Translations under genes and position numbers: made by a program
Part shown: positions 4,834-63,663 of the stretch, in pieces
Layout of the letters: each line of letters starts with the position of its first letter
Position numbering within the stretch: the stretch's first letter is position 1
Notes under the pieces: model-generated
Seen by the model: only the letters and a program-made list of their open reading frames with translations
What the model was told of the DNA's origin: nothing
Database searches by the model: none
Origin: Paenibacillus amylolyticus
Lineage (GTDB): Bacteria; Bacillota; Bacilli; Paenibacillales; Paenibacillaceae
Assembly: GCF_029689945.1 (NCBI RefSeq)
Contig: NZ_CP121451.1
Location: 6,572,001 to 6,636,000 of the forward strand
Length of the DNA stretch: 64,000 nucleotides
Reading direction: 5' to 3'

Positions 4834-5781
4834 ATGTTAAAGAAAAACCTTATGCTTGTCATGAGTATCTGTCTGGTGCTTGTGCTCGCTGCCTGTGGAA
4901 CGGCCAATAATTCATCAACTGCTTCCGGTGGTTCATCCACAGATACCTCAACCGAGAATCAAGGCAATAGTTCAAGTTCGGGAGAGCCACGTATTGCCTC
5001 CATGTCGATCCATTTGACCAATGATCTGCTGTCTCTCGGTATTACGCCGGTGGGTTCCGTTATTGGCGGTGAAGCCAAAGGTTTCCTGTCCCATGTTGCG
5101 GATCGCCTTCAAAATACAACGCCACTTGGTCCGGTTAAAGACCCGGATATGGAAGCTTTGCTTGCCCTGAAACCCGATGTAATCTATCTGGATGAAGAAT
5201 TCTCTGGTGATGATATTGCCAAATTCGAGAAAATTGCTCCAGTGCATGTTTTCAACATGGATGACGGTACATGGCGCGACCACCTGAAGGACATTGGCAA
5301 ACTCGTGAATCGCGAGAAGGAAGCCGAGCAATACATTCAGGACTACGCGACCGAAACGGAAGAAGTAAAATCTCTCATTCATGACACGATTGGTGATGGT
5401 ACCGTCATGGCGATTCGTGTTACTGCCAAAGAGTTGCGTGTGTTCAGTACACGCCGTCCCATGGGTCCCATTTTGTATGAGGATCTCGGTCTGACGCCTG
5501 CCAAAGGCATTACGGATATCGATTCAACCAAACCGTACCAGGTCGTCTCTCGTGAAATATTGCCGGACTATAATGCAGATGCGATCTTTGTGGTTGTGAA
5601 TTCGGATGATGAAGCCCAAACCATGTTCAAGGAGCTGCAAAACAATCCGATCTGGCAAGGTCTGAAAGCAGTCAAAGCCGGTCATGTCTACCCGATAGGG
5701 GCACAACCTTGGCTAGATTACTCATCGATTGGTAATAAAATGGCCATGGATGAAGCGAAAGAAATGTTCTCCAAAAAATAA
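4834..5781 (+). CDS. Iron-siderophore-binding lipoprotein (FeuA-like)
   Basis: A 315-residue extracytoplasmic binding protein. The N-terminus is a lipoprotein signal, with a hydrophobic core and the lipobox LAAC (lipidated Cys21), followed by a Ser/Thr/Asn-rich tether to about residue 50. The rest is a class III binding fold: RIASMSIHLTNDLLSLGITPVG, ALKPDVIYLDEE, then NNPIWQGLKAVKAGHVYPIG near the end, as in FeuA/YfiY-type proteins. It delivers ferric siderophore to the two upstream permeases and belongs to the same Fur-controlled operon. Here the binding protein comes last, unlike B. subtilis feuABC. The ribosome binding site AAGGAG is somewhat far (13 bases) from the ATG. Confidence 0.9.
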   Translation: MLKKNLMLVMSICLVLVLAACGTANNSSTASGGSSTDTSTENQGNSSSSGEPRIASMSIHLTNDLLSLGITPVGSVIGGEAKGFLSHVADRLQNTTPLGPVKDPDMEALLALKPDVIYLDEEFSGDDIAKFEKIAPVHVFNMDDGTWRDHLKDIGKLVNREKEAEQYIQDYATETEEVKSLIHDTIGDGTVMAIRVTAKELRVFSTRRPMGPILYEDLGLTPAKGITDIDSTKPYQVVSREILPDYNADAIFVVVNSDDEAQTMFKELQNNPIWQGLKAVKAGHVYPIGAQPWLDYSSIGNKMAMDEAKEMFSKK

Positions 5782-5783
5782 CC

Positions 5784-5863
5784 AAAAAACCTCACTTTGA
5801 GCTCGGAACAACGTTGGTATGAATCATACTGACGCTCTATTCCGGTCAAAGCCGAGGTTTTTT
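5784..5863. terminator. Bidirectional terminator between siderophore operon and macrodomain gene
   Basis: AAAAAACCTC at 5784-5793 pairs with GAGGTTTTTT at 5854-5863, and CTTTGA 5795-5800 pairs with TCAAAG 5846-5851. T runs follow the stem on both strands, so it can serve the plus-strand feu-like operon and the minus-strand ADP-ribose genes, which converge here. Confidence 0.75.
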
Positions 5864-5912
5864 CTTTTGAATCTGTCAGCAAGCTGCAATCTACCTTTTC
5901 CACTCGGTGTAC

Positions 5913-6335
5913 TCACACTGTGCAGACAATAATCTCAATATCCGTATCGGCAAAAGTTTCCTGAATAATTGGGTTGACTTTCTCCCATTTCAGTCTGTCC
6001 AACCCGCATCCAATCCGGGGCATCGCCAGTTTCGTAATCCCTTCCATTACACATACGTCACGCATGGATTCAACCGCATTCGTCAACGATTGGTATGTTG
6101 GCTTGTTGGAGAACTTTGCTTTGGTGACCAGATTGAGCGTCCGCCCTACCGGATAACATCGTCCAATCTCAAGCGGCTCTAGTTTGGCCTGTTCTTGAAG
6201 ATTTTCCAATCCAAAACGCTCCCGGAACTGTACGGCAATACCCTTGCCCATCCTTGCATCGGCTGATATGCAGTGCGCAAGCGAATAATCATCTCCCAGA
6301 TCGAATAAATCCTGTTGTCTCTCATGAAACTGCAT
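5913..6335 (-). CDS. TARG1-like macrodomain ADP-ribosyl hydrolase
   Basis: A 140-residue, single-domain cytoplasmic protein of the ALC1/TARG1 macrodomain branch. Seen in order: LAHCISADARMGKGIAVQF (residues 19-37), LVTKAKFSNKPTY (69-81) and MPRIGCGLDRLKWEKV (from 105). These line up with human TARG1 (OARD1), including the counterparts of its catalytic lysine (here K72) and aspartate (here D113). TARG1-type enzymes hydrolyse ADP-ribose esters and O-acetyl-ADP-ribose, and related DarG domains remove ADP-ribose from thymidine in DNA. The start at 6335 is chosen because AAAGGAGAG lies just upstream; longer in-frame starts lack a site. It is the last gene of a four-gene minus-strand cluster. The precise substrate is inference. 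Confidence 0.88.
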   Translation of the reverse strand: MQFHERQQDLFDLGDDYSLAHCISADARMGKGIAVQFRERFGLENLQEQAKLEPLEIGRCYPVGRTLNLVTKAKFSNKPTYQSLTNAVESMRDVCVMEGITKLAMPRIGCGLDRLKWEKVNPIIQETFADTDIEIIVCTV

Positions 6336-6479
6336 GTCATCTCTCTCCTTTATCATATTTACACAGACATTATCCCTGACAGAATACCCTTCCAAGTCGC
6401 TGTTATCCCCAGGTTTTTCTGTCTTCTCCGTTATCGTGCAATTGATTAGTTCAACATATCGAGATCCTTATTTTATTAA

Positions 6480-7481
6480 TTATGCCTCTGCCAAAATACG
6501 TTGAAATGCCTTCAAAGTTCTCTGACCTGCTGATCGATCATATATGGCAAATACAATGCGTTCAAAGGCGTCCTTACATGCCTCTCCCACTAACACATCA
6601 TGAAAATACTTCGCCACTACTGCCGGTTCATTACGAAATACGCCGCAACCATACGCACCGAGAACAATCGTGCGGTGACTATTCGCAGCAGCCACGTCCA
6701 GAATATAACGGATGCGTTCCTTCATCACCGACTCAATCTGTAGATTATCCGCTTCTCCACGCTCTTTCACCACACCCGCATTCACCGCCGGCGCAGTAAT
6801 GAATGAGGATACATAATATTTGTCCAGTAGCCGGTCTTCATCATCACGGATCACCGGAACATCTGGTGAATAGATCATATAATGCGAATAGAGAGCCGAT
6901 CGCTGTTTGCGATTGTAATCGTACATTTCATTCATTTGTGCGATGCAAGGATATAGGCCTGTCGCTCGGGCCAGACTCTCTTCCTGTGCCTGACTTCCGC
7001 CTAGGAAGCCGCCGCCCGGATTTTTCGCCGATGCAAAGTTTAGACAGACCACATCTTCTCTTCCTTCAGCTACCGTCAAACGTGAAGCAGCTCCAAGTGT
7101 AGTCTCGCCAGTAACTTCAATGCGACCCGGTACAGCCTCAACTTCAGATGATGGGGTCGTAGGTTGGGTTGCAACGTAAGCTTCTGTACGACGCTTTTCT
7201 CTGAGCGCGGACAATGCTGCTGGACGGTATAAGACCGAATTACGGATGGCTTGCTGCACATCGGTACCGATCCCAACCTTGCGATCATACCCGTTTACGT
7301 AATACCCTTCATCCAAAATAGCCAACGTCTGCTGTGCGATATTAGCCCGCTTGGAACGTGAACTGGAGCCGCCATTACCTGTTGATCTATCGAGTTTATT
7401 ATTGTTGTTATACTGCTCACTGTTATCTTTGCTATTTTTGTTATTGCTGCTATTGTTTTTATCCTGTTGTTGATCACTCAT
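6480..7481 (-). CDS. Bacterial-type poly(ADP-ribose) glycohydrolase-like protein (TIGR02452 family)
   Basis: A 333-residue macrodomain-fold protein. The signature NPGGGFLGGSQAQEESLAR (GGG 156-158, QEE 166-168) is the PARG catalytic motif, GGG followed a few residues later by Q-E-E; further on are YGCGVFRNEP and ERIVFAIYD. Such enzymes cleave ADP-ribose-ADP-ribose or protein-ADP-ribose bonds. The first 45 residues are an unusual low-complexity Asn/Ser/Lys segment with no counterpart in the fold. ATG 7481 is chosen because AGGAAG lies eight bases upstream. It overlaps the NADAR stop by eight bases, so the two genes are translationally coupled. Family call is strong; the natural substrate is not known. 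Confidence 0.87.
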   Translation of the reverse strand: MSDQQQDKNNSSNNKNSKDNSEQYNNNNKLDRSTGNGGSSSRSKRANIAQQTLAILDEGYYVNGYDRKVGIGTDVQQAIRNSVLYRPAALSALREKRRTEAYVATQPTTPSSEVEAVPGRIEVTGETTLGAASRLTVAEGREDVVCLNFASAKNPGGGFLGGSQAQEESLARATGLYPCIAQMNEMYDYNRKQRSALYSHYMIYSPDVPVIRDDEDRLLDKYYVSSFITAPAVNAGVVKERGEADNLQIESVMKERIRYILDVAAANSHRTIVLGAYGCGVFRNEPAVVAKYFHDVLVGEACKDAFERIVFAIYDRSAGQRTLKAFQRILAEA

Positions 7482-9855: not shown

Positions 9856-11638
9856 TTGTGGACGTTAAAACGATTCTTGACCCCGTATAAGTCGGCGGCG
9901 ATCATCGCCCCGCTGCTCATGGTACTTGAGGTAACCATGGACCTGCTCCAGCCCAAGCTGATGTCCAGCATCGTGGATAATGGCGTACTTGCAGGGAACC
10001 TGCCCCATATTGTGACTACAGGTCTGATCATGCTGCTTGTTGCATTAGTCGGCTGGGTTGGCGGCGCAGGCTGCACACTCTATTCAAGCAAAGCTGCCGT
10101 GGGATACGGCACGGATCTGCGTCAGGAACTGTTTGACCATATTCAGACCTTCTCCTTCCGCAACCTGGATACGTTTCAGGAAGGATCTCTGATTACGCGT
10201 CTGACCAGTGATATTACCCAGATGCAAACCTTTGTACAAATGCTGCTGCGGATGTTCATCCGTTCGCCGATGCTGATCATCGGCAGTATCATCATGGCAT
10301 TTACAATTAGTGTGAAGCTGGCTTTGATTCTTATTGCCACTGTGCCCGTACTGTTTATGATTTTATTTATTCTGATAAAAGCTTCCTATCCGCTGTTCGC
10401 CAGTGTTCAGAGCAAGCTTGATCAGGTCAACGCTGTGCTCCAGGAGAATCTTGCCGGCATCCGTGTCGTCAAGGCGTTTGCACGTGCACGTCTGGAGAAA
10501 AAACGGTTCAAGCAATCCAACGAAGATTACACTTCAACCGCCGTCAAAGCCTGGCGTATAGTCACGCTGAATGCACCCGTGCTCAGCCTGATGCCGAACG
10601 CTACCATTGTAGCGGTGCTGTGGTTCGGAGGCTTTCAGGTAGTTGGAGGCGATATTGCTGCCGGAGATCTGATTGCTTTTATCAACTATGTCACGGTTGT
10701 ACTCTCTTCCCTCACGTCGATCGGCATGATGATGATGAGCTCTCTCGCGCCAAGGTGTCTGCTGCCCGGCTCAACGAGGTGTTACATACACAGCCAGATA
10801 TTCAATCGGGAACCGATAACTCCAGGAAAGTACAGCCACTGTCGTCTATCCGGGATCAGAACTCATACCAATCGTCTCCCTTCCCCTCACACACAGGCGG
10901 TCAAGTGGAGTTCCGAGACGTATCCTTCCGTTATGACGGAGAACATGCACTTACCGGTATTAATCTGATCGCCCGTCCGGGGAGAAAGTGGCCCTGATCG
11001 GTTCAACAGGTTCAGGCAAAACCTCGCTGGTGCAGCTTATTCCCCGTCTGTATGATGCTTCCCAAGGTGAGGTGCTTGTGAACGGAGTGAACGTTCGTCG
11101 TTGGGATCTTCAGGATCTTCGCAGCCGTGTGTCCATTGTGCTCCAGGAATCCATTCTGTTCAGCGGCAGCATCCGGGATAACATATGCTTCGGCCGGCCC
11201 GGCGCAACGGATGCTGAATTGCGTGCTGCGGCACAAGCTGCGGCAGCGGATGATTTTATTATGAAATTGAAGGACGGGTATGACACGGAACTGGGTCAGC
11301 GCGGGGTCAATCTGTCCGGTGGGCAGAAACAACGTATATCGATTGCACGCGCCCTGCTTATGCGACCGGAAGTGCTGATTCTGGATGATAGCACCAGTGC
11401 TGTGGATCTGCGCACGGAAGCCAGTATTCAGAAAGCCTTGCAATCCTTGATGAAAGACAGCACGACCTTTTTGATTGCACAGCGGATCTCCTCGGTGAAG
11501 GATGCAGACTGTATCTATGTCATTGATGAAGGACAGATCGTTGCCAGGGGCACACATGATGAGCTTATGGCTGATTCATCCCACTACCAAGCCATCTATT
11601 ATTCGCAGCAACGGAAGGAGGATGTTCAATTTGGCTAA
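9856..11638 (+). CDS. ABC exporter half-transporter, BmrC/YheI-like (degenerate catalytic site), two frameshifts
   Basis: About 594 residues after repair: a six-helix transmembrane domain (about 1-310) and a nucleotide-binding domain with Walker A GSTGSGKTS, signature NLSGGQKQR and Walker B VLILDDSTSAVD. The residue after the Walker B aspartate is D, not the catalytic E. That marks the non-hydrolysing partner of a heterodimeric exporter such as B. subtilis BmrC. Frame is lost near 10740 (one C missing; MMSLSRAKVSAARLNEV is restored) and at GGGG 10979-10982 (one G missing; PGEKVALIG is restored). The start is TTG 9856 after GAGGTGA. It overlaps the next gene by eight bases. Confidence 0.85.
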
Positions 11639-13461
11639 ACCCGCCTCTTCCTCCATGCACCAAACGGTCGTGCCTCCCATCGGAAGACCCGGACCAGCGG
11701 GCAGAGGACCTGTTCCCAAAGTCAGAGCCAAGAATGCTCGCCACGCCCTGATTCGGGTATGGTCATATATGAGACGTCATCGCAAAGGCGTCATTGCTGC
11801 ATTAGTGCTGACCGCTCTCGGAACACTGCTGAACCTGGCAGGACCCTATCTTCTCGGACGCGCCGTTAACGAACATATCGTGCCCAAAGTAACAACGGGG
11901 TTGCTGAAGGAATGTCTCCTCTTGCTGAGTGTTTATGTCCTTGGCTCACTCCTGATGTGGGCTCAATCCTATGTCATGATTGGTGTGTCCCAACTGACCG
12001 TTAAAGATCTGCGACACGCGTTGTTCTCCCGACTGCAAGAGCTTCCCGTCCAGTTTTTTGATAAAAATCAAAGCGGGGATCTGATGAGCCGGGCCACCAA
12101 TGATATTGATAACGTATCTACAACGCTGAATCAAAGCGTAACCCAATTGATGTCCAGCGCCATCCTGCTCGTTGGCTCCTTGTCGATCATGTTTGCACTT
12201 GATGTTCGGCTTACCCTGCTCAGTCTGGTGACCGTACCCTTGATTACCATTGCTACTCGTCTGATCGCTTCAAAAACTCGCAAACACTTCACAGCCCAGC
12301 AGAAGTTACTTGGTGAGCTTAATGGATATGCACAGGAGACCATTGCTGGACAAAAGTCGTAGCGGCTTACAACCGTCAGGATCAGGCACATCAGCATTTC
12401 AAGAACCTGAACGAGAAACTGCGCACCTCCAGCACACAGGCCCAGACGGTATCGGGTTTGGTTGGCCCTACGATGAACGTGATGAACAACATCGGGTTTG
12501 CCATACTGGCTTCCGTAGGTGGATGGATGGCTTATCATGATCTGACATCCATCGGACTCATCGTCAGTTTTCTCGCATACTCCCGTCAGATTGAGCGGCC
12601 GCTCAATGATCTGGCCAATCAGTACAATCTGATTCAGGCGGCCATCGCAGGTGCTGAACGTGTGTTCCAGATCATGGACACGCCTGGTGAATATGTGGAG
12701 GAACAGAAGAAACAACTGGAACAGATTCAAGGTAAAGTTGTATTTGAAGATGTCTCCTTCGGGTACAGTGCGGAGCGAGACATTCTGAAGAAGGTCAATT
12801 TTACTGCCAAACCTGGCGAGATGATTGCACTTGTTGGACCGACTGGCGCAGGTAAAACGACCATTATCAACCTGTTACCCCGTTTCTACGAGATTACAGG
12901 CGGACGGATTACCATTGATGGATGTGATATCTCGGAACTGGAGAAGGATCAACTTCGTCGGCAACTCGGCATTGTACTTCAGGATGCCTACCTGTTCTCG
13001 GGTACCATTCGTGACAATCTCGCCTACGGCAAGCCAGACGCAACCGATGAACAGATCAGGCAAGCGGCTACACTTGCGAATGCACACTCGTTCATCCGCA
13101 AACTGTCGCACGGCTACGATACGCCCATCCTTTCCGGGGAAGCAATCTGAGTCAGGGACAACGACAACTGCTGACCATTGCCCGGGCAATTCTGGCTGAT
13201 CCAGCCATTCTTATTCTGGATGAGGCAACGAGCAGCATCGATACGCGTACCGAGATGCAGATTCAGGAAGCGATGCGCACGTTAATGAAGGACCGTACCA
13301 GCTTTGTCATCGCCCACAGACTGAGCACGATTCGTGAAGCCGATCAGATTCTCGTCATTGATGATGGACAGATCGCTGAACGGGGAAGCCATGATGAGTT
13401 GATGCAGCAACAAGGATTCTACTATCAGTTACATCAGGGACAGCTTAATAAGTCGAACTAA
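11631..13461 (+). CDS. ABC exporter half-transporter, BmrD/YheH-like (canonical catalytic site), two frameshifts
   Basis: About 610 residues after repair. A Pro/Gly-rich N-terminal tail (about 1-35) precedes six membrane helices and a nucleotide-binding domain with Walker [10 protein letters not shown] and Walker [13 protein letters not shown]. The signature is the altered NLSQGQRQL. Canonical Walker B with altered signature is the expected complement of the upstream partner, so the two form one asymmetric drug or lipid exporter. Frame breaks at AAAA 12352-12355 ([11 protein letters not shown] is restored) and GGGG 13136-13139 ([11 protein letters not shown] is restored), both as one missing base. 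TTG 11631 is chosen because AAGGAGG lies nine bases upstream; the nearby ATG 11622 directly abuts that site. Confidence 0.85.
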
Positions 13462-13478: not shown

Positions 13479-13673
13479 CTAACGAATCTGAGGCGTCTTA
13501 TTCAAGCTTTTGAAGCCCCCTCAGAAATCTAAGGAATCTGAGCCACTTTATATCCGTGTAAACAGCCGTTTTCAGCGTACTTTTCATGTTTTTTTGGGAA
13601 ATAACGTGTCTGAAGTTTCTTACAAATTAAAGTAAGGACCTGAGGGCCAAATAAGACGTCCTCTGTTCCTTAG
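13479..13673. repeat. FFRR intergenic repeat, copy A
   Basis: Four 24-bp units: forward at 13479 and 13529, reverse at 13600 and 13650. All carry the conserved edges CTAA-S-GAAYC at one end and TTATT (or a close variant) at the other, with a variable middle. Offsets 0/50/121/171 equal those of copies B and C. The element lies between convergent genes, after the exporter operon and before the 3' end of the kinase gene. It is the only copy without an adjacent 9-bp tandem repeat. Confidence 0.85.
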
Positions 13674-49247: not shown

Positions 49248-49609
49248 CCACCTTCACGCTCCTTGAGACAGAATGGGTGATGCTTATATACATCGATGAT
49301 GAACAGACGTTTGATTCCCCATAACCAACCTTCTTCAACAGGTAATACCATTCCGTAATGATTGCGCTTACAATTTTAAAAAAGAGAAATCAGCTTGCCC
49401 GACTACCAGCGTGCGGTCCCCCTTCCATTCTCTTTCCAATCCGAGCGAAGCGATCTCGCCCATCGGGTTCTATTATAGACATCCTGCCTGCCAGACCCTA
49501 GGCAAATATCCGTCCAAAACGATCAATAATCAGTGTTATTAGGAGTCATTTTGGAAAAAAGTACTTGCAGCTGTAAGGGATAGCCGCTCCGGTTACGAAT
49601 TGTTCCTAT

Positions 49610-49725
49610 GATCGCTGTTATCCCCGGATTTCTTCTCTCTCTTCCAAGGGAAAAATCCGAGGATAAAGGTGAGTTGATGCTTACGAAGTAGCTTTCTTGC
49701 AGAAAGCTTTCAGCTTCGCTCTCCA
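49610..49725 (-). repeat. Two-hairpin dispersed repeat, copy 2
   Basis: The inverse of the element at 15857-15970. Large hairpin TTATCCCCGGATTT (49618-49631) with AAATCCGAGGATAA (49653-49666), then small hairpin AGCTTTCT-TGC-AGAAAGCT (49690-49708). Stems are nearly identical between copies; the linkers have diverged. Confidence 0.8.
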
Positions 49726-49809
49726 GAATCGATTTCGTCCCCTCCACTACACCTCTCCGTTGGTCAAGAACTTCATTTCAAGAATGTCTCATGCTCACCG
49801 CACCTTTTT

Positions 49810-50004
49810 CTAACAAATCACACACACGCTATTGGGGCGTTAAACTCCAACAAAGAATCCTAACGAATCCCAGTAACCTTATTAGGACCAAAACGGGTCA
49901 GAGTGGATCAAAATCCACCCCATTTAACTGAATAGCGTGTCTACGATTCATTAGAATTTTCAAATGCTTCAATTCAACGAAATAGCGTGTCCTCTGTTCG
50001 TTAG
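49810..50004. repeat. FFRR intergenic repeat, copy B
   Basis: Four 24-bp units: forward at 49810 and 49860, reverse at 49931 and 49981. Three of the four share the ACACGCTATT end. Offsets are 0/50/121/171. It lies 3' of the GH6 gene, in the 990-base gap before the PL11 gene. Confidence 0.85.
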
Positions 50005-50144
50005 AAAAGAAATAGGACCATCCCCTGCTCATTTTCATGACCAGAGGATAGCCCTGCTTAGACATCCGCTCTCACATCCCTAATTTCGGATCCTCAAGCG
50101 ATGCTAAATATATTTTCATGTGAGAACTTCACTTCTCACGCCCT

Positions 50145-50216
50145 TAACGCCCTTACCTACATTTACCTATATTAGTTACGTTAGTTACGTTAGTTACATC
50201 ATTTACGTTAGTTATA
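50145..50216. repeat. 9-bp-period tandem repeat
   Basis: TTAGTTACG occurs three times in a row (50172-50198), with diverged 9-base units on both sides (CCTTAACGC, CCTTACCTA before; TCATTTACG, TTAGTTATA after). It lies 140 bases from FFRR copy B. Confidence 0.7.
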
Positions 50217-56767: not shown

Positions 56768-56962
56768 CTAACGAATCTGACAGATCTTATTCAGCCATTT
56801 TGACCGAATTCAAGATTCTAACGAACCTCAGCATCGCTATTGAACTACATTTCGGCAACCAAAGGATCAAATCGGACAAAATGCAACATATAGCGTCATT
56901 ACGATTCGTTAGAATTCCAGTAATGCCTTACGAGGCAATATAAGAACTCTCAGGTTCGTTAG
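56768..56962. repeat. FFRR intergenic repeat, copy C
   Basis: Forward units at 56768 and 56818, reverse at 56889 and 56939; offsets 0/50/121/171 as in copies A and B. It lies between the convergent modular-protein and small membrane-protein genes. Confidence 0.85.
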
Positions 56963-63206: not shown

Positions 63207-63318
63207 GGCTTGTGGTCTTGCGGGCTTGCGGGCTTGTGGGCTTGTGGGCTTGTGGGCTTGTGGGCTTGTGGGCTTGTGGGCTTTTGCGCTTGCAGAGCTT
63301 GTGGGATTGTGGGCTGTT
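63207..63318. repeat. 9-bp-period tandem repeat
   Basis: About nine copies of GGGCTTGTG, the first ones with GCG variants, decaying at the right end. It lies about 40 bases before FFRR copy D. The reading frames are artefacts of the period. Confidence 0.85.
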
Positions 63319-63355: not shown

Positions 63356-63547
63356 CTAAGGAATCGAGGGAGTCTTATTTTGCCCCTCCCCTCATTTTTA
63401 ATTGTAAGGAACACCAGACACCCTATTTCCTAAAAATGTAATGATTAACGCCAGATATGGCTCAAAATCTTAAAGTAGCGTGTCTCAGGTTCCTTAGATA
63501 TCCGTAATTGCTTTAAACTCCTGAATAACGTGTCTCCGATTCGTTAG
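63356..63547. repeat. FFRR intergenic repeat, copy D
   Basis: Forward units at 63356 and 63404, reverse at 63474 and 63524; offsets 0/48/118/168, slightly shorter than the other copies. It lies between the convergent phosphatase and oxidoreductase genes. Confidence 0.82.
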
Positions 63548-63623: not shown

Positions 63624-63663
63624 AAGGGGCGTCCCGTCATATTCATGACAGGGACAGCCCCTT
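63624..63663. terminator. Bidirectional terminator-like hairpin
   Basis: AAGGGGC at 63624-63630 pairs with GCCCCTT at 63657-63663; TCCCGTCAT/ATGACAGGGA extends it. It is 46 bases beyond the minus-strand oxidoreductase stop, with TTCTTCATTTTT following on the plus strand. Confidence 0.7.

Follow-up and report, generated by a model that had tools for sequence, protein, structure and literature searches.

Four elements in the Paenibacillus amylolyticus window

The window (the whole stretch of 64,000 nucleotides analysed, from the 6.83-Mb Paenibacillus amylolyticus genome, G000) contains four complete elements, each made of four 24-bp units, two forward and two reversed (F-F-R-R). The element at 49810..50004 comprises the forward units F1 (49810..49833, plus strand; CTAAcAAATC...CTATT, one mismatch to the consensus, profile score 25.9 bits) and F2 (49860..49883, plus; no mismatches, 30.1 bits) and the reversed units R3 (49931..49954, minus; one mismatch, 29.7 bits) and R4 (49981..50004, minus; one mismatch, 28.5 bits). 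These are separated by an F1-F2 spacer of 26 bp (49834..49859), a centre spacer of 47 bp (49884..49930) and an R3-R4 spacer of 26 bp (49955..49980), all with helically phased A/T (phase z of 2.82 for the three spacers pooled). The other complete elements are found at 13479..13673 (units at 13479+, 13529+, 13600- and 13650-; phase z of 2.7), which resembles the subfamily A described below, at 56768..56962 (units at 56768+, 56818+, 56889- and 56939-; phase z of 3.61) and at 63356..63547 (units at 63356+, 63404+, 63474- and 63524-), whose spacing of 48/70/50 places it outside a phase test that covered 50/71/50 copies only. All 16 units lie where the original prediction had placed them, with offsets of 0/50/121/171 at 13479, 49810 and 56768 and of 0/48/118/168 at 63356. 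The prediction that three of the four copies stand between convergent genes also holds for 13479, 56768 and 63356, the 49810 copy being flanked by two minus-strand genes, according to our own ORF calls rather than annotation.

Other features were observed in the window. Hairpins with a TCAT-NTTC-ATGA core, beside two of the elements (50015-50053 and 63626-63661), are similar to the hairpin at the end of the subfamily B shell. A second dispersed repeat (49583-49750) adjoins the 49810 element; it is absent from the orthologous place in the relatives G016, G002, G011 and G008, occurs elsewhere in G008 at 86% and 81%, and is similar to the flanks of the elements at loci L073, L087 and L088. To the left of the 63356 element (approximately 63215-63315), a GGGCTTGTGG-like unit forms a tandem array that is mostly missing in G016. 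Finally, an ABC transporter gene at 11502-13199 is seemingly split across reading frames, which may reflect a frameshift or an assembly error.

A genome-wide and order-wide family with nearly rigid geometry

The exact unit pattern CTAASGAAYC-N10-TATT has 58+54 matches in G000, compared with 0+0 for the reversed pattern used as a control. A profile of the 24-bp unit (cut-off of 9 bits) returned 302 matches in 820,060 bases, made up of the window and 60 regions fetched around listed exact units (112 exact units in all), against 7 in the reversed sequence, bearing out the claim of a regularity beyond chance. In this 0.82 Mb, 71 complete F-F-R-R elements were identified; three listed places (6472395, 6479688 and 6570205) fall outside that count, so the genome has more than 71 copies. 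The four copies reported in 50 kb are all present in the window, and the genome total is at least 71 rather than four.

Spacing among the 71 elements was 50/71/50 in 57, 50/70/50 in seven, 50/71/51 in three, 49/71/50 in three and 48/70/50 in one. The 14 elements that deviate from 50/71/50 do so by 1-3 bp in total, and the geometry is fixed within 3 bp in total in all 71, with F-F and R-R distances nearly rigid at 50 (range 48-51). Even though the F-F-R-R order was part of the definition used for these complete elements, no alternating unit order was seen in the partial loci of the same regions either (L059, L085, the second of L091 and the first of L113). Two or three F-F-R-R elements also occur in tandem, with a period of approximately 260-375 bp, at L080 and L110 in G000 and at L045, L046, L048 and L049 in G036.

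Information per column was 1.28 bits in units versus 0.22 bits in non-unit columns (spacers and 30-bp flanks), as computed on 26 copies less than 62% alike drawn from the 57 with standard spacing. Within the unit, TAA, GAA and the terminal TA scarcely vary, and positions 9-20 are variable yet biased. The shared edges of the original prediction are near-invariant as described; the middle ten bases, said to vary, do so, though not freely.

Of 246 genomes sampled in the order, 116 (31 of 46 genera) carry the family according to a sequence-only profile of its F-F half built from 54 sequences. Presence is patchy, with no profile match in the other 130, and copy numbers in this sample are floors, since approximately 19 candidates were scored per genome. 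In a sample of the phylum, 4 of 249 genomes matched; three of these belong to the window's lineage (the genome itself, a congener and a further member of the family), and the sole match outside the order was marginal (E 4.4e-4). The named records read from the pattern scan (80 of at least 120 stretches) came from Paenibacillus, Cohnella, Saccharibacillus and a Paenibacillaceae MAG. Carriage by phages or plasmids was rejected on searches in which diverged copies would be missed: one strict exact pattern had no match in viral contigs, and a single blastn query each had none in phages or plasmids. Within the open-licence PMC literature we found no paper describing the repeat, and papers containing a 10-base piece of the unit, among the matches listed, seemed to be primer or chance matches judging by title. 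The search for unit pairs proposed in the original prediction thus uncovered a family that is both genome-wide and order-wide, with units elsewhere in the genome, conserved spacing and no counterpart in a catalogued family within the collections searched.

Elements are intergenic and favour convergent gene ends

None of the 71 elements overlaps an ORF of at least 130 aa by more than 60 bp, in agreement with the intergenic location claimed for the window copies; at L065 and L071 the element overlaps an ORF end by about 50 bp. As the original prediction had suggested, we mapped copies relative to gene orientation, using our own calls of ORFs of at least 130 aa instead of annotation and intergenic stretches of at least 300 bp in the same regions. 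Stretches with an element comprise 28 convergent, 34 tandem and 3 divergent cases, compared to 25 convergent, 116 tandem and 35 divergent among those without, indicating that convergent pairs are favoured and divergent pairs avoided (p 1.8e-6).

The loci are also unevenly distributed along the chromosome. In G016, 39 of 45 lie in the origin-proximal half (p 5e-7). The corresponding values in G000, with subfamilies A and B assigned by hand, are 33 of 37 for elements outside these subfamilies, 11 of 20 for A and 8 of 14 for B; the G000 origin (approximately 1.06 Mb) was placed by matching G016, whose start was taken as dnaA from ORF order by eye. We read this bias as the survival of old copies in the conserved part of the chromosome, and a role near the origin could also be its cause.

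Old copies are constrained in place

Orthologues of the window elements were located through homologous flanks, chosen regardless of the presence of units in the relatives. G016, G002 and G011 each have an intact 49810 element, which is missing from G008. For 56768, intact copies occur in G016 and G002, and G011 and G008 lack it; all four units of the 63356 element are present in G016. The inspection of orthologous loci for empty sites, advised in the original prediction, returned occupied and empty sites alike. In five comparisons of two window loci (49810 and 56768) with G016, G002 and G011, which share ancestry, changes affected 4 of 160 positions in unit edges (2.5%), 35 of 320 in unit middles, 42 of 260 in the 26-bp F-F and R-R spacers and 56 of 235 in the centre (24%), and identity in the 60-bp right flanks ranged from 63 to 85%, four of the five comparisons having gaps there.

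The same order of rates was obtained for 17 of the 28 G000/G016 pairs, with 1.5% of edge, 11% of middle, 12.7% of spacer and 16.6% of centre positions changed, and approximately 25% of flank positions changed with 1.9 gaps per 60 bp. The window copies were left out of this set and its G016 loci were picked because they contain one or more exact units, a choice biased towards conserved edges; the flank-chosen window comparison avoids this bias. Furthermore, in G020, a more distant relative, an element shares 66% identity with the 56768 element, compared to a maximum of 59% among 56 other G000 elements. As 56768 is thus closer to it than every other G000 element compared, the G020 copy is probably the same old copy and the orthologue of 56768, which an element in G013, at 51%, is not. 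Judged by these substitution patterns, old copies are under constraint in place.

Spacers carry a helical A/T phase

The 26/47/26-bp spacers consist of near-random letters whose A/T fraction swings from approximately 0.2 to 0.98 with the helix. When fitted to spacers alone, the best A/T period was 10.14 bp (bootstrap 10.12-10.16), with a power of 136 against a maximum of 9.6 among 200 shuffles preserving the letters of each spacer, and this period continues through the centre of the element. Copies with the 61 geometry presented below yielded 10.14 independently (8 non-redundant of 43, from named genomes). The peaks of the phase correspond to AA/TT and the troughs to GC, GG and CC.

The phase is also detectable copy by copy: all 57 standard copies presented z above 1.64, compared to 5 of 114 flank controls. 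The template was derived from the same 57 copies, and the effect far exceeds what a shared template would give. Outside the element, the flanks showed almost no pooled phase signal (24 copies, with window copies left out). We conclude that the repeat is a genuine and old DNA element, present across the order, whose wrapping signature is unusual.

Centre spacing falls into classes about one helical turn apart

The centre distance (F2-R3) is 70/71 in the genus of the window and 59-61 in G036, which belongs to another family; match coordinates give values of 60 or 61 for G111, G119, G122, G234 and G244, all outside the genus. These six genomes from outside the genus thus have a centre one helical turn shorter. 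When the centre was allowed any length from 51 to 81, the 84 matches among those listed comprise 59 at 60/61, 22 at 70/71 and one each at 63, 64 and 81. At 10.14 bp per turn, 61, 71 and 81 amount to 6, 7 and 8 turns, and these classes, spaced by approximately one turn, agree with the near-integral helical geometry of the original prediction. The 61-to-71 shift was probably one event at the base of the genus, with one additional 81 copy, and few independent changes, not 84, therefore underlie the quantisation.

A comparison of the W-fraction profiles of the 71 and 61 centres shows that, with respect to the A/T phase, the dyad lies half a turn apart in the two. Since a 10-bp change in the centre displaces the dyad this far, no contact can be fixed there, and what is conserved is how the two F-F modules are phased with each other. 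Small slips in spacing occur: in 9 of the 28 orthologous G000/G016 pairs a single spacing is off by 1 bp, and for the 63356 element the F1-F2 distance is 48 in the window versus 51 in G016 (51/70/50 there).

Inverted symmetry without maintained pairing

The inverted symmetry of the element would also suit a structured RNA or a cruciform, with F1 pairing to R4 and F2 to R3. Consistent with this explanation, RNA folding energy is below that of shuffles (mean z of -4.5 over 26 copies), and changes are less frequent at sites that pair in G000 than at non-pairing sites, both in unit middles (0.160 versus 0.295) and in spacers (0.204 versus 0.309). Double changes at paired unit-middle sites both preserve a pair, but they are rare (2 of 307). 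In contrast, when the complementarity of partners was compared within and between the 26 copies, own-copy values did not exceed those of other copies for the outer unit middles (0.490 own versus 0.485 other, z -0.11), the inner unit middles (0.545 versus 0.573, z -1.43), the 26-bp spacers (0.388 versus 0.380, z -0.20) or the centre (0.263 versus 0.310, z -2.22). Since own-copy pairing is no better than pairing between copies, an RNA stem is not maintained, and the observation that paired units differ in the middle about as much as unpaired ones is upheld. A small 14-element set is ambiguous, its raised F2-R3 similarity (z 2.4) being matched by an equal rise in the non-partner units R3 and R4 (z 2.4).

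We attribute the low folding energy and the fewer changes at paired sites to the inverted-repeat symmetry of the consensus, though both carry some weight. Moreover, pairing predicts neither the 10.14-bp A/T phase nor the fixed spacer lengths, and Rfam presented no match at gathering threshold in the window and none at E<=1 in 49700-50150, in keeping with the original remark that no named family was known. A stem or cruciform was accordingly rejected on the own-versus-other pairing test, with folding energy and paired-site rates leaning the opposite way, and we consider it highly improbable; the preference for protein contacts over an RNA stem is in turn supported. The CTAAC/GTTAG of the units presumably resembles an integron attC site; with regard to the foldable imperfect hairpin of such sites, the strand folds better than shuffles and its pairing is not kept copy by copy.

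Some copies have spread inside larger shells

Two subfamilies in G000 are mobile. The subfamily B element, of approximately 297 bp, has a left hairpin and the ends GAGGATGTCCC and GAGACAGCCCC; it matches 17 places in its own genome with 76-100% identity over 227-361 bp, 13 of them reaching nearly to the far end, in addition to one split copy. Subfamily A has the ends TGTCTTCAAAC and GTTTGAAGACA and flank clusters of 7 and 4. In both cases the copy boundary lies at outer shells with different ends and not at the units.

These copies bring into consideration a miniature transposon in which F1-F2 and R3-R4 would be two-site ends bound by a transposase (IR/DR-like), with phased spacers aiding looping and end pairing. 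F1 and R4 are imperfect 24-bp inverted repeats, i.e. terminal inverted repeats as in a MITE, with an inner repeat; the near-identical dispersed copies of subfamilies A and B, together with the occupied and empty orthologous sites, point in the same direction, and helical phase would matter for end pairing too. However, the A and B boundaries fall in the outer shells, 96 of 142 flanks in G000 are unique, and copies remain constrained in place. Target-site duplications at unit ends were found in none of the 71 G000 elements at k>=4 and in 1 of 89 elements of other genomes at k=4, against 2.2 expected. No autonomous partner was seen either, the three distant F..R pairs examined holding IS insertions instead. 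We therefore regard the miniature transposon as unlikely: with mobile shells and no duplication at the units, the element can ride in transposon-like shells and is not itself shown to be a transposon. The alternative of protein contacts or element ends put forward in the original prediction is thereby resolved in part, with contacts supported and element ends the weaker half, even though two subfamilies have been copied inside larger, MITE-like shells.

An autonomous transposon form was rejected upon examination of these long distances. At L045 in G036, the 1868-bp F2-R3 distance holds an IS110-family ORF of 426 aa (DEDD_Tnp_IS110 and Transposase_20 in a domain scan). Insertions in the centre spacer of G036 elements (3599-5442 in L045 and 4211-6054 in L046, domains having been scanned in L045) leave the same F2-R3 distance of 1868 bp, suggesting that an IS110-family element targets the repeat or was copied with it. 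In G000, an IS with two transposase-like ORFs (IS3 family by eye) interrupts unit R3 at L085 (approximately 5776-7080), giving a distance of 1410 bp. According to a published account (PMC10969869), MITEs with IR/DR ends and Correia elements with an IHF site are likewise short, with inverted ends, no ORF and possible bend sites; the present element differs from them in its unit ends devoid of target-site duplication, in the location of its mobile-copy boundary and in its constraint in place.

Spread by a RAYT (Y1) transposase, as in REPIN/BIME-type repeats, was considered as well. RIP/BIME-1 elements are bound with IHF, and the element shares with BIME and REP sequences its nature as a dispersed intergenic repeat of oriented units, which in those systems are bound by an architectural protein or gyrase. 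Its multi-copy, palindrome-like units avoid promoters, and a Y1_Tnp gene is present in the copy-rich genomes G002, G011, G013, G024, G025 and G027. Nevertheless, no PF01797 match was obtained in the copy-rich genomes G000, G008, G016, G023, G034 and G036, and the hypothesis was rejected on the missing transposase in these six. The units, moreover, are not maintained hairpins, and a direct pair of units faces an inverted pair at rigid distances, with a 10.14-bp phase in the spacers, whereas the regularly spaced REPs of BIMEs alternate in orientation (PMC2817692). This explanation is extremely unlikely.

A putative wrapped nucleoprotein site

We infer DNA wrapping at the element from the period of its sequence alone. 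Nucleosomal DNA has a period of roughly 10.2 bp, and AA/TT and GC steps alternate in the nucleosome positioning sequences of eukaryotes and archaea. The period of 10.14 bp is below 10.5, near the nucleosomal value and below the 10.75 bp of gyrase, suggesting a left-handed wrap. The rigid geometry, the turn-spaced centre classes, the A/T code, the constraint in place and the lack of maintained pairing are what a wrap of approximately 190 bp would demand.

The 195-bp element is therefore best described, on these sequence features, as probably a double-stranded DNA site for a nucleoprotein complex in which a putative multi-site protein wraps the DNA. In the proposed mechanism, an oligomeric protein with four protomers or dimers, one per unit, would read the units directly and bend the phased spacer DNA around itself into a wrapped particle of roughly 190 bp. 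In the sequence itself, A/T-rich steps recur every 10.14 bp along the element on a single helix face, and the site consists of a rigid 74-bp F-F module and its inverted copy, joined by a centre spacer whose lengths group roughly one turn from each other. As a host chromosomal element at gene ends and away from promoters it might, by a weaker inference, act as a point of local architecture, topology or insulation, and new copies may arise when a MITE-like shell carries the element along.

A strong site for DNA gyrase (or topoisomerase IV), like the Mu SGS or BIME-2, would also present phased G/C and A/T across a wrapped length and an intergenic location near gene ends and between convergent genes, and BIME-2 elements, as intergenic gyrase sites, provide a precedent (PMC6379681). 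The same paper describes an E. coli gyrase motif that, like the element, is two-fold symmetric, exceeds 100 bp and shows an A/T-G/C wrapping periodicity, but with a period of 10.75 bp and a distinct 36-bp centre around the cut (PMC6379681). The element is longer, has four conserved units and maintains 10.14 bp through its centre; a centre of 61 instead of 71 displaces the dyad half a turn against the A/T phase, so that nothing is fixed at the dyad, and the four 24-bp units and the near-restriction to one order would be left unexplained. The gyrase site was rejected on the misfit of period and centre, and we deem it very unlikely.

More speculatively, the element could be a bacterial counterpart of a nucleosome positioning element: order-wide, with a dedicated four-site candidate protein, a left-handed wrap of approximately 190 bp, a 10.14-bp A/T code and a centre lengthened by exactly one turn in the genus. 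This fuller reading is possible yet tentative. The alternation of AA/TT and GC near 10.2 bp is common to nucleosome positioning sequences and the element, which differs in being bacterial, in its sequence-specific units and in having no fixed dyad. The usual explanation of dispersed repeats in bacteria is a dead transposon or a folded RNA, whereas this one shows a strong copy-by-copy wrapping signature, and more than 150 natural variants separate the features that are kept (unit edges, helical phase and spacing) from those that drift. Should a bound protein be found, it would be one that wraps DNA sequence-specifically at defined addresses of a Gram-positive chromosome, and how wrapped sites relate to gene ends and supercoiling could then be tested directly.

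With regard to candidate proteins, nine low-copy loci revealed no consistent neighbouring regulator gene; by eye, only the G111 element is near an Lrp/AsnC-like ORF, and no regulator was seen beside the other eight. RemA-like proteins are present in all 59 relatives, with or without the element, so neither their presence nor RemA copy number is informative as a clue to the bound protein. RemA rings and the Lrp/LrpC octamers of Bacillus comprise four DNA-binding dimers and have been proposed to wrap DNA (PMC8481266). RemA rings and Lrp octamers are attractive for the protein of the element, but as models only. Wrapping by LrpC is reportedly right-handed, going by a paper title, and would fit a period above 10.5 bp rather than the 10.14 bp observed here.
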